Made by a program: the position numbers and the translations under genes. The notes under the pieces are model-generated. The model ran no database searches and was not told the origin of the DNA. It was given only the letters and a program-made list of their open reading frames with translations. From positions 1 to 26,923 of the IMG/VR virus record IMGVR_UViG_3300040807_000248: a DNA stretch of 26,923 nucleotides; one strand, 5' to 3'. This stretch comes from a virus. Positions 6,628-20,457 of the stretch are shown one piece after another (the first letter of the stretch is position 1; each line of letters begins with the position of its first letter).

Positions 6628-6656
6628 GTTGTACTGCAACTATGCAGTAATGTCAA
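6628..6656 (-). promoter_or_regulatory. Sigma70-like promoter with operator in the spacer, for the recombination operon
   Basis: Minus strand: TTGACA (6656-6651), 17-bp spacer, TACAAC (6633-6628). The spacer is filled by a near-palindrome TACTGCATAGTTGCAGTA (6649-6632). It differs at one base from 11219-11202 and shares ACTGC-N5-TGCAG with the promoter at 8560-8588. It overlaps the stop of the helicase-loader gene and lies just before the exonuclease SD. Confidence 0.65.
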
Positions 6657-7266
6657 CACGCTTTTTGTGAAGCGCATCTAACAGTAGCTGGCGCGTGCGT
6701 ACTCGCCAGCCAATGTGTTCATAAAACTCTGCGTATGAAGGCCAGAATTTTGCAGACTCAGATACACGCTTGATTGCACGTTGTACAATGTCTGCTGGGT
6801 AATTTGATAACTGCATTGCTAGGCTTCTCATGCGTAGTGAGTGGTCTTCTGGTGTCTCGCCTGTAGGTTTGACCACCAGCGTTGCTAACAATTCAAGCTG
6901 GCTCTCGATGGCCTCCACCGACAACGGGGTCATCGAAGCCAGCACAGCTTTGATTGCTTGCTCTACTTGCTCAACTGAATCTGCTTCTATCTTGAAACCA
7001 GAAACAAGAATGTGAGTGCCGTAGTCTGTAAACCTAGTGCGTGATATTTCATTGACTGTGTAACCTAGTATTGATTCGACCGAAGTAACTAGACTTCTGT
7101 CCACTTTGGCTGGGTCGCCTATCTCTAACAATCGAGCCACCGATTGTTTTCGCTGTTCCGAACTTAACTGAATTTCGTATCCAGTTTCGGTAGGCTTTCT
7201 CGATGTCGATGAATGTTGTGCCTTTTGATTGATGGTGGTCACGGAACTGATTGGCTTCAAAGTCAT
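6640..7266 (-). CDS. Putative helicase loader (P-like replication protein)
   Basis: The ATG ending at 7266 has GAGG nine bases upstream, giving 208 residues. The C-terminal half has EDHSLRMRSLAMQLSNYPAD, IVQRAIKRV, KFWPSYAEFYE and a basic tail (VRTRQLLLDALHKKR). The YPAD...W/FWPS.AE...R..LL.AL pattern is one I associate with phage proteins acting as helicase loaders or replisome organisers. Its first 218 bases overlap, in another frame, the end of the O-like gene. The residue 1-70 segment is low in recognisable motifs, as expected for overprinted sequence. Loading of host DnaB is inferred. Confidence 0.5.
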   Translation of the reverse strand: MTLKPISSVTTINQKAQHSSTSRKPTETGYEIQLSSEQRKQSVARLLEIGDPAKVDRSLVTSVESILGYTVNEISRTRFTDYGTHILVSGFKIEADSVEQVEQAIKAVLASMTPLSVEAIESQLELLATLVVKPTGETPEDHSLRMRSLAMQLSNYPADIVQRAIKRVSESAKFWPSYAEFYEHIGWRVRTRQLLLDALHKKRVDITA

Positions 7267-7684
7267 GGTCAAATTCCTCTTTCATAATTGTATCTATAGA
7301 AAAGCGAAGGTCATCAGACGGCATCCACTCATCTGGAACTTGTTTGCGCCTAACAACTTTATTGTTATTACTGGTTATTGATAGGTTAGTGTCGCTCTCT
7401 GCAACAGTGGTGTCGCACTGTGCGACAGTCGGGAATACAGTATAGAGTGTTGAACGTCTGCTGTTACCACGTTCTCTAACCACAAGACCGTGTTCCTCTA
7501 GCCAGTTTAGTTTTCTAGCTACAGTTGCTTTGTTCATTTGTGTGCGGTCAGCAAGACGTTCGAGGCTAGGCCAGCACTGGCCTGTCTCCTCGTTGGCGTG
7601 GTCTGCTAGTACAACTAACAACCACTTGGCATAGCAATCAGGTATATCAGCTTTGATTGCCCTCGCCATCAGTAGAAATGACAT
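7049..7684 (-). CDS. Replication initiator-like protein (O-like) with N-terminal winged helix
   Basis: GGAGAAC sits four bases before the ATG. The 211-residue protein has an N-terminal DNA-binding domain: KWLLVVLADHANEETGQCWP, then LERLADRTQMNKATVARKL and LEEHGLVVRE, a wing and RRSTLYTV. After a low-complexity linker containing TVAQCDT-TVAESDT, the C-terminus has DEWMPSDDLRFSI, NQFRDHHQSKG and AYRNWIRNS, a pattern common at the ends of phage replication proteins. The linker DNA contains tandem iterons followed by AT-rich sequence, as in lambda O, so the gene probably carries its own origin. It partly overlaps both neighbours. Confidence 0.65.
   Translation of the reverse strand: MSFLLMARAIKADIPDCYAKWLLVVLADHANEETGQCWPSLERLADRTQMNKATVARKLNWLEEHGLVVRERGNSRRSTLYTVFPTVAQCDTTVAESDTNLSITSNNNKVVRRKQVPDEWMPSDDLRFSIDTIMKEEFDHDFEANQFRDHHQSKGTTFIDIEKAYRNWIRNSVKFGTAKTIGGSIVRDRRPSQSGQKSSYFGRINTRLHSQ
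7351..7387. other. AT-rich stretch next to the iterons (candidate unwinding region)
   Basis: About three quarters of these 37 bases are A or T, and they directly abut the two iterons at 7388-7429. In lambda ori an AT-rich segment follows the iterons and is where strands open. The same function is inferred here. Confidence 0.4.
7388..7429 (-). repeat. Two tandem 21-bp iterons inside the initiator gene (candidate origin)
   Basis: Positions 7429-7409 and 7408-7388 read, on the minus strand, as adjacent 21-bp units agreeing at 17 positions. Each holds a dyad: GTCGCACAGTGCGAC (perfect apart from its centre) and GTTGCAGAGAGCGAC. They encode the heptapeptides TVAQCDT and TVAESDT. The period of 21 bp puts both on the same helix face. 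Confidence 0.55.
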
Positions 7685-11201: not shown

Positions 11202-11244
11202 TACTGCATCTATGCAGTATATAATGTTTAGTTGCTGTGTGCAA
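11202..11244 (-). promoter_or_regulatory. Leftward early promoter with palindromic operator
   Basis: Minus strand: TTGCAC (11244-11239), 17-bp spacer, TATACT (11221-11216). The near-perfect palindrome TACTGCATAGATGCAGTA (11219-11202, 8-bp arms) overlaps the -10 and start region. A short inverted repeat GTTGC-N5-GCAAC lies at 11231-11245. The -35 is weak and may need an activator. Confidence 0.6.
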
Positions 11245-11336
11245 CCATAGACTTTTTTTCTCAAGTCATGTTTGATTTGTTGGCGGCTGGCAAACACTCA
11301 GCCGTGATGTGTCCCCCCTTTCGGGCGGATGAGAAA

Positions 11337-12107: not shown

Positions 12108-12197
12108 ATGGTGCGTGTTCGTGCAATCTCTGACCCTTGTGCTATTGTGTGTACTATTGTTTTGTGCGTTGACAAGGTACTCGCTGAGAGTGGATAA
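12108..12197 (+). CDS. Candidate small peptide (29 aa) before the small terminase gene
   Basis: GGAG lies seven bases before the ATG at 12108. The frame gives 29 residues with a hydrophobic Cys-rich core (DPCAIVCTIVLCVDKVLAES) and ends at TAA just before the G-tracts. It could be a leader peptide or a tiny membrane protein. It also overlaps the candidate late promoter, so it may be chance. The only support is the good SD spacing. Confidence 0.3.
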   Translation: MVRVRAISDPCAIVCTIVLCVDKVLAESG

Positions 12198-16219: not shown

Positions 16220-16241
16220 TTTGTGCGTTGCGCTGTGCGAC
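16220..16241 (+). promoter_or_regulatory. Late regulatory site ahead of the portal block (dyad GTTGC-N5-GCGAC)
   Basis: TTTGTGCGTTG (16220-16230) runs into GTTGCGCTGTGCGAC (16227-16241). The stretch agrees at 23 of 27 positions with 19494-19520. The dyad also resembles the iterons at 7388-7429. It lies in a 62-base gap without a gene, before an SD AAGGAG. A good -10 is not seen. Confidence 0.55.
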
Positions 16242-19644: not shown

Positions 19645-20457
19645 ATGGCGAATACTATTGATACCGCTTTTATTAAACAGTTTGAATCAGAGGTACACAT
19701 GGCTTATCAGCGCATGGGTTCTAAATTGCGGAACACTGTGCGTACTGTATCAAGTGTACGTGGCAACACTGTGCGTTTCCAAAAGATTGGCACAGGCTCT
19801 GCTTCAACTAAATCACGCAACGGCAACGTAGCACCTATGGAACTTGCACACACCAATGTGGAAGCAACAATGGCTGACTACTATGCCGCAGAATACATCG
19901 ACAAGTTGGACGAACTAAAGACCAACATTGATGAGCGTCAAGCAGTTGCTAAGTCTGCCGCCGCCGCATTGGGGCGTAAGACTGACGACATTCTTATCAC
20001 AGCTATGGATGCTGGTGCTAATGCAACGCAGATTAATTCAACTGCGGCCGCAGTAGACAAGGCTGACTTGCTTACTCTGTTCGAGACATTCGGTTCTGCC
20101 GATATTCCTGAAGATGGTGGGCGTTATCTTGCTATGCACCCGAAAGGTTATGCTGACCTGTTTGCAATCAACGAGTTTGCTTCAAGCGACTTTGTTGGCG
20201 AACAGAACCTGCCTTTCGCTGGCGGTATGACAATGAAGGAATTTCTTGGGTTCAAGATTTTCTCTACATCAGCCGTAACTGCTGGTAAGAACATTGCTTA
20301 TCACACTTCTGCTGTTGGTCTTGGCATTGGCTCAGACGTAACAACTGAACTCAACTATGTCGCAGAAAAAGTATCACACCTTGCCACATCAATGATGTCA
20401 ATGGGTTCTGTCGTTATTGACGACAACGGTGTGTACGAAGTTCTGGACAACAACTAA
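19645..20457 (+). CDS. Major capsid protein
   Basis: The 270-residue protein has MANTIDTAFIKQFESEVHMA, then NTVRTVSSVRGNTVRFQKIG, ADYYAAEYIDKLDELKTNID, GRYLAMHPKGYADLFAINEF, and ends VSHLATSMMSMGSVVIDDNG. This is the pattern of podovirus capsid proteins of the HK97 fold found in marine phages: an N-terminal helix, NTxxxxxKIGxGxA, and a late MxxxGAVVIDxxxV. Length fits. It is preceded by a short leader without a gene and followed by a decoration-like gene. Confidence 0.85.
   Translation: MANTIDTAFIKQFESEVHMAYQRMGSKLRNTVRTVSSVRGNTVRFQKIGTGSASTKSRNGNVAPMELAHTNVEATMADYYAAEYIDKLDELKTNIDERQAVAKSAAAALGRKTDDILITAMDAGANATQINSTAAAVDKADLLTLFETFGSADIPEDGGRYLAMHPKGYADLFAINEFASSDFVGEQNLPFAGGMTMKEFLGFKIFSTSAVTAGKNIAYHTSAVGLGIGSDVTTELNYVAEKVSHLATSMMSMGSVVIDDNGVYEVLDNN

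Follow-up and report, generated by a model that had tools for sequence, protein, structure and literature searches.

A probable lambda-like replication origin embedded in the O-like initiator gene of a viral genome segment

When a replication initiator gene carries tandem repeats within its own coding sequence, we may ask whether those repeats serve the protein, as a linker peptide, or the DNA, as sites at which replication begins. We consider this question for an O-like gene in IMG/VR virus record IMGVR_UViG_3300040807_000248, of which positions 1 to 26,923 were analysed as a single stretch of 26,923 nucleotides, hereafter called the window. Our conclusion is that the segment is very probably a replication origin of the lambda-ori kind, embedded in the gene of its own initiator, in which the O-like winged helix would bind a set of dyads and the adjacent AT-rich tract would melt. 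The protein binding, the melting, the helicase loading and the start of replication at this segment are inferences; the features concerned are as follows.

7049..7684, minus strand: O-like replication initiator of 211 aa, with a winged helix (residues 1-84), a disordered linker (about 85-112) and a helical C-domain of DnaT/primosomal type (about 114-178)
6640..7104, minus strand: P-like gene, overlapping the last 18 codons and the stop of O; its GTG start is deduced from conservation of the frame
7412..7426, minus strand: iteron 1, GTCGCACAGTGCGAC, a perfect 6+3+6 dyad with 6/6 arm positions paired
7391..7405, minus strand: iteron 2, the AT-proximal one, GTTGCAGAGAGCGAC, an imperfect dyad with 4/6 paired, 21 bp from iteron 1
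7379..7389, minus strand: element CTAACCTATCA, nearly invariant, which falls inside codons T99-S102 and follows the last dyad at once
7355..7390, minus strand: tract of 75% AT, proposed as the unwinding element; AACC occurs at 7387-7384 and a second time 11 bp further, at 7376-7373

The initiator gene and its repeats

The N-terminus of the initiator matches HTH_36 (1.3e-13), its best PHROG is phrog_1032, replication initiation (1.1e-27), and its C-terminal part matches phrog_1408 (1.8e-7). In the AlphaFold (AF2) model, a confident winged helix occupies residues 1-84, residues 88-110 have pLDDT below 50, and a helical C-domain spans residues 114-178; this C-terminal domain is DnaT-like. Fold searches returned general winged-helix matches only (best E 1.3e-3; VIA best Z 10.4 over 67 residues at 1.6 A), with 4pt7 ('structure of initiator') and its relative 4pql among the near-tied rows, and a PDB sequence search with the initiator profile gave transcription-factor winged helices only. 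Judged from the model, these fold matches, which mostly probed the N-terminal part, mean a winged helix and no more. Matches in BFVD are mostly unnamed HTH proteins, and a search of bacterial genome contigs found no relative at the sensitivity used.

The P-like reading frame is conserved downstream of O in relatives. Since it overlaps the end of O in another frame, the C-terminus of O is doubly constrained. The best PDB fold match of its helicase-loader-like four-helix core (6643-6930; model pLDDT 94) is SPP1 G39P, 1no1, a weak match with probability 0.91 and E 0.25, and the P-like protein had no match in the phage collection. Genes for a YqaJ/RecE-type exonuclease, an SSB and a helicase-loader-like protein lie in the neighbourhood; the window also has a Holliday-resolvase-like gene, and no phage helicase was recognised among the window genes searched.

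On the minus strand, positions 7388-7429 consist of two contiguous 21-bp units inside the O-like gene. Unit 1 (7429-7409) comprises codons 86-92 and encodes TVAQCDT; unit 2 (7408-7388) comprises codons 93-99 and encodes TVAESDT; and a 15-bp dyad is present within each. A sequence-only reading of this DNA had proposed exactly such a pair of iterons with internal dyads, lying between the winged-helix and C-terminal parts of the protein. Sequence and translation bear out the pair and its peptides, and the AlphaFold model places a disordered linker at that point. The same reading had an AT-rich stretch follow at once, and indeed the next 36 bp are 75% AT as compared to a gene mean of 54%, which puts them in the top 1% of the gene's 36-mers for AT, no other being richer, and in about the top 2% within the window. 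GC skew, which that reading had suggested as a check, tracks gene direction and is therefore uninformative about an origin.

Considering the window gene alone, 10/12 arm positions are paired. When the gene was recoded synonymously, 20 of 2000 random trials did as well at this place, and 47 of 2000 did so anywhere in the gene (P about 0.01-0.02); the pair also escaped a repeat finder run with its default settings. Since the dyads of this one gene are only moderately unlikely by synonymous recoding, their statistical weight comes from relatives.

Dyads and half-sites among relatives

The set of homologues comprises 117 genes: that of the window together with 79, 12 and 25 loci. One search for relatives counted 150, of which the best 80 were considered, and four partial or weak loci (L164, L165, L197, L198) were left out of the gene set. 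A contig represented by more than one locus was meant to contribute only once. Some of the 117 genes are near-identical, there being 49 distinct proteins among the first 80. For the pairing test we used 26 representatives that are less than 80% identical, omitting L033, which contains N, and L080, whose gene ends early; with the conserved element as a fixed anchor, we scored the two AT-proximal 15-mers.

Across these homologues the dyad array recurs with a 21-bp period, in 2 to 3 (perhaps 4) copies that abut CTAACCTATCA. In the 26 representatives 249 of 312 arm positions are paired, as compared to 156.2 +/- 7.1 after synonymous recoding, and none of 4000 random trials reaches 249. In each representative between 8 and 11 of the 12 positions pair; other offsets in the same genes average 3.06/12. 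The rows of this comparison share ancestry, and single genes are often not significant when taken alone (highest P 0.12, in L012 and L150). By this comparison of sequences, the dyads are maintained at the DNA level. The earlier reading counted only two clear units, which holds for the window's clade; other clades have three. It had also named an outcome that would speak against it, namely relatives that keep the protein and lose the repeats; what we find is the abutting element in 116 of the 117 genes and dyads at the same two positions in all 26 representatives.

The half-sites themselves differ among clades, while the dyad, its register and the element are retained:

GTYGC: most relatives
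CTCCG: L072-L076, L105, L106, L111, L112
GTTCG: L078, L097
GGTCG: L098-L103, as their main half-site
GTCTC: L086-L090, L159-L163
GTMCG, that is GT[AC]CG: L150, L151, L153
GTAG(C/T): L010

The tree of the 26 representatives requires no fewer than 12 changes of half-site state. The linker peptides differ as well (VAQCDT, VLRESEG, VRQTNY, VSHRDE and GRYATY, depending on the clade), with dyads and 21-bp register retained. Such a combination of changing peptides and constant dyad register fits a selected DNA-binding site, as read from these alignments, and is unlike a protein repeat.

We compared half-site distance with residue differences among the 26 representatives, correcting for overall protein distance. 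The highest values belong to residue 57 (0.68) and residue 56 (0.63), and 0 of 2000 permutations reach 0.68. Both residues belong to helix 52-64, which is the recognition helix in the AlphaFold model, and V57 accompanies CCG arms in two separate clades (L072; L150/L151/L153). Against this, L086 has the usual R57 and yet GTCTC arms, and high values are also reached by columns 24, 50, 35 and 32, which are not part of helix 52-64. Because an independent-pairs test counts only 2-3 independent changes of residue 57, a sign test on that residue is empty. Thus, the evidence from sequence covariation that the initiator reads its own iterons is good but not conclusive.

Directly after the dyads, an in-frame [AC]CTAA[CA]C[TA]A occurs in 115 of the 117 genes. 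The count rises to 116 with L024, whose element has one changed base, and the remaining gene, that of L080, ends before the element; in L102, where a first match lies upstream of the dyads, the one after the dyads was counted. Codons T99-S102 read ACT AAC CTA TCA, and among 16 representatives less than 90% identical their synonymous-codon identity is 100%, as compared to a mean of 0.56 over 104 columns. Where the amino acid does change (CTA to CAA, TCA to TTA or CCA, ACT to CCT), a single base differs in the element. In the window, CTAACCTATCA is found 6 times with up to 2 mismatches, against 7.6 expected by chance, and the copy in the gene is the sole exact one.

The 36 bp that follow the iterons are more AT-rich than their own gene in all 26 representatives. 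Moreover, 25 of the 26 (all except L078) have a second AACC or AAACTA 11-13 bp on, a spacing found at only some 1% of control positions, among which are AT-rich ones. We read this tract, with AACC repeats about one helical turn apart, as a candidate unwinding element. Three loci (L150, L151, L153) have the winged helix, iterons and AACC tract of the others and a different C-terminal domain, so that the N-domain and the origin would seem to move as a single module. Since the AACC tract persists alongside a different C-domain, the likelier agents acting on it are the N-domain, a host factor or a melting tendency of the DNA itself.

Single dyads elsewhere in the window

The pattern GT[CT]GC-N5-GC[AG]AC occurs exactly five times in the window, namely in the two iterons and at 11231, 16227 and 19501. 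Under a first-order Markov simulation the mean count is 0.076, and none of 1000 random trials reaches five. The three distal sites, together with the promoter that one of them overlaps, are:

11231..11245, minus strand: single dyad GTTGCACACAGCAAC, overlapping the -35 of the probable early leftward promoter
11244-11239 (TTGCAC), 17 nt, 11221-11216 (TATACT), minus strand: probable early leftward promoter, ahead of the leftward early genes
16227..16241, plus strand: single dyad after the terminase gene and before portal-type genes; also in L004
19501..19515, plus strand: single dyad; the gene at 19645, probably the major capsid gene, lies about 130 bp downstream; also in L004

A promoter scan of the window gave 17 promoter-like sites, as compared to 17.0 in shuffled sequences; since the scan does no better than shuffles, it is the recurrence among relatives that supports the assignment of the early promoter. 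With the same spacing to the -10, the promoter dyad is exact in 8 of 11 testable regions of the TGC/GGTGC type, the window included. It has one mismatch in L022 and is absent in L034 (degenerate) and L046; L070 lies outside the tested set. In regions with other half-sites it was found in 0 of 8, two of which hold about 4 kb or less upstream. Within the clades with other half-sites we also sought a dyad of their own type, any TGC dyad, and any dyad 7-13 bp before the -10, and none was recurring. A leader hairpin, TACTGCA..TGCAGTA (11202-11219), follows the promoter dyad, and in relatives the two recur about 3.3-4.5 kb upstream of the O-like gene.

Another sequence, TTTGTGCGTTG, occurs exactly three times in the window, at 12161, 16220 and 19494 on the plus strand, each time before a rightward gene block: small-terminase-like, portal-type and probable capsid, respectively, where the first and last identities are deduced. 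These three copies are probable late promoters, judging from sequence and position. Two of them (16220 and 19494) continue into a distal dyad.

The placement of the distal dyads suggests that the initiator may also regulate transcription. They could equally be sites for a second factor of the same specificity, or fork barriers like those of SPP1. Because the same dyad occurs singly at promoters, dyad binding alone need not mean an origin. A further proposal, which we hold only tentatively and regard as somewhat doubtful, is that the tandem dyad in the gene is the origin, and that the single dyads at the early -35 and near two late blocks (in the window's clade) would let the initiator shut down its own operon once it has accumulated, thereby coupling replication to the early/late switch; residues 56-57 would also predict the half-site, as a specificity code.

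Known origins and rival explanations

The sequence-only reading likened the segment to lambda ori, with iterons in O between its two domains followed by an AT-rich region. The lambda record (NC_001416) agrees with that plan: it has four annotated 18-bp iterons inside O, whose starts are spaced by 20, 24 and 23 bp, and beyond them comes a 40-bp stretch that is 78% AT. According to PMC5043065, a review, lambda's inverted repeats are bound by O dimers and the adjacent 40 bp melts. PMC7466680 gives two iterons and the AT tract as the minimum for unwinding in lambda, so that a window origin with two iterons is reasonable. The window shares these sequence features of a lambda-type origin: tandem iterons in the linker-coding region that are inverted repeats, at least two of them beside an AT tract lying on the C-terminal side, and all of it kept in relatives. 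The two also differ. Lambda's four 18-bp iterons follow at uneven steps, whereas the window's two follow at 21 bp; CTAACCTATCA is missing from the 60 bp that follow lambda's iterons; and in place of lambda P the window has a G39P-like neighbour, by a weak fold match.

At the protein level the likeness is remote. Neither pairwise comparison by BLASTP (E 0.52) nor profile comparison by hhalign (probability 0.2%) finds the window initiator similar to lambda O, and phrog_277, which is lambda O proper, is absent among the best 25 of its 28 PHROG matches; phrog_345, 391 and 678 are matched by both proteins. The earlier designation of an O-/P-like gene pair needs qualifying in that homology to O is not detectable, beyond the shared remote families, and the best fold match of the P-like protein, a weak one, is G39P. 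The segment would accordingly work like lambda ori, with proteins outside lambda's own families.

In SPP1, as described in PMC6316719, oriL lies within gene 38; the phage further has oriR as a second site, the loader gp39, and an exonuclease, annealase, SSB and resolvase. It resembles the window in that an origin, a probable one in the window, is placed in the initiator gene, with repeats and an unwinding element; the small gene next to it encodes a helicase loader, which the window's neighbour may do as well, given its weak G39P match. SPP1 differs in that its repeats are described there as direct and in that it encodes its own helicase, gp40. Two cultured phages, Sphingopyxis phage VSN-002 and Microcystis phage Mvi-Yong1342-1 (L204 and L205), have the same wHTH and C-domain families as the window and linker repeats followed by GACAAACCATCAAGAACC. 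Their repeats are of another sequence, at steps of 17, 17 and 22 bp, none a multiple of a codon, and the proteins are 26-28% identical:

L204:841-913 and L205:839-911: the O-like genes carry four repeats of 17 bp each, for which the records have no annotation

Given these linker repeats, the in-gene plan is wider than the window's clade. Salmonella phage SI8, a 32%-identical cultured match, has no such repeats, and in MEP301 a comparable initiator linker was not found. Gene 55 of MEP301 (L082:34057-34662) is listed on the plus strand of its record, but only the minus strand is open, encoding an HTH protein, and the listed strand looks wrong. By terminase the nearest cultured relative (64.6%) is Pelagibacter phage EXVC031P Hodr, which shares the type of C-terminal domain and the gene neighbourhood, but has an XRE-type HTH instead of the winged helix, and in which tandem dyads were not found. 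Initiators of the Hodr type (L081:15522-15553, L166-L189) have a 12-nt inverted repeat in the region coding for the recognition helix, which is well conserved, with 7-11 of 12 positions paired in 19 genes, and is possibly an in-gene site of their own.

Three other explanations should be weighed against an origin of the lambda kind. The heptads might be a tandem repeat at the level of the protein, forming a flexible linker, with the dyads a mere by-product: the units are seven codons long in the window's relatives and the linker is predicted to be disordered. However, pairing exceeds that of synonymous recodings of the very same peptides, different peptides yield dyads in the same register, and the 17-bp step in the two cultured relatives means that there the peptide is not a repeat. 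We regard this explanation as highly improbable. Somewhat less so, but still improbable, is that the dyads are operators, through which the wHTH protein or another factor controls transcription, the copies in the gene acting as an internal operator or roadblock. In 8 of the 11 TGC/GGTGC-type regions that could be tested, an exact single dyad does overlap the probable early promoter, and two more lie near late blocks in the window; yet in the eight regions with other half-sites no distal dyad was found, whether with their own arms or with TGC arms, while the array in the gene is always present. The invariant element and the AT tract with AACC repeats suit an origin instead, and the protein belongs to replication-initiation families.

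The third explanation extends the preferred one rather than replacing it. In a use like that of SPP1, the site in the gene would be an oriL, and the distal sites would stall forks and switch replication to recombination-dependent synthesis of concatemers. The window has a G39P-like fold (weakly matched), the YqaJ exonuclease, SSB and Holliday-resolvase-like genes, and distal dyads; SPP1 itself, according to PMC6316719, combines an in-gene oriL with oriR, gp39 and recombination genes. But the distal sites of the window are single dyads without the exact element of the AT tract, they overlap or adjoin probable promoters, and they are absent in several clades, so that we consider this extension unlikely, if less so than operators.

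For the lambda-like origin, which we prefer, the following mechanism may be proposed. A dimer of the O-like protein would bind each 15-bp dyad through the recognition helix of its winged helix. The bound dyads, two here and three in relatives, would sit on one face of the DNA, as they are 21 bp, or two helical turns, apart; together they would strain and melt the adjacent AT tract, beginning at CTAACCTATCA. The DnaT-like C-terminal domain and the overlapping G39P-like product would then load the host helicase.

Our analysis supports reading the segment as a lambda-type origin with its iterons inside the gene. The dyads keep strictly to a register of two helical turns, their half-sites differ between clades in step with the recognition helix, the element next to them is invariant, and the dyad may have a second use at promoters. 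A literature search found no earlier report of these in-gene origins, a weak negative since it covered few subscription papers. New here are the AACC repeats, which follow one another at 11-13 bp within the AT tract, and the exact single dyads elsewhere in the window.

These results would place a lambda-like replication strategy in small podovirus-like phages that are related by terminase to a Pelagibacter phage. They provide initiators and iterons that have changed together as pairs, so that direct tests can be made of initiator specificity, of a minimal origin with two iterons and of what the invariant element does, and they offer a sequence rule for locating origins in uncultured phages. 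If the specificity code is true, residues 56-57 of the recognition helix would tell which origins fire in mixed infections.
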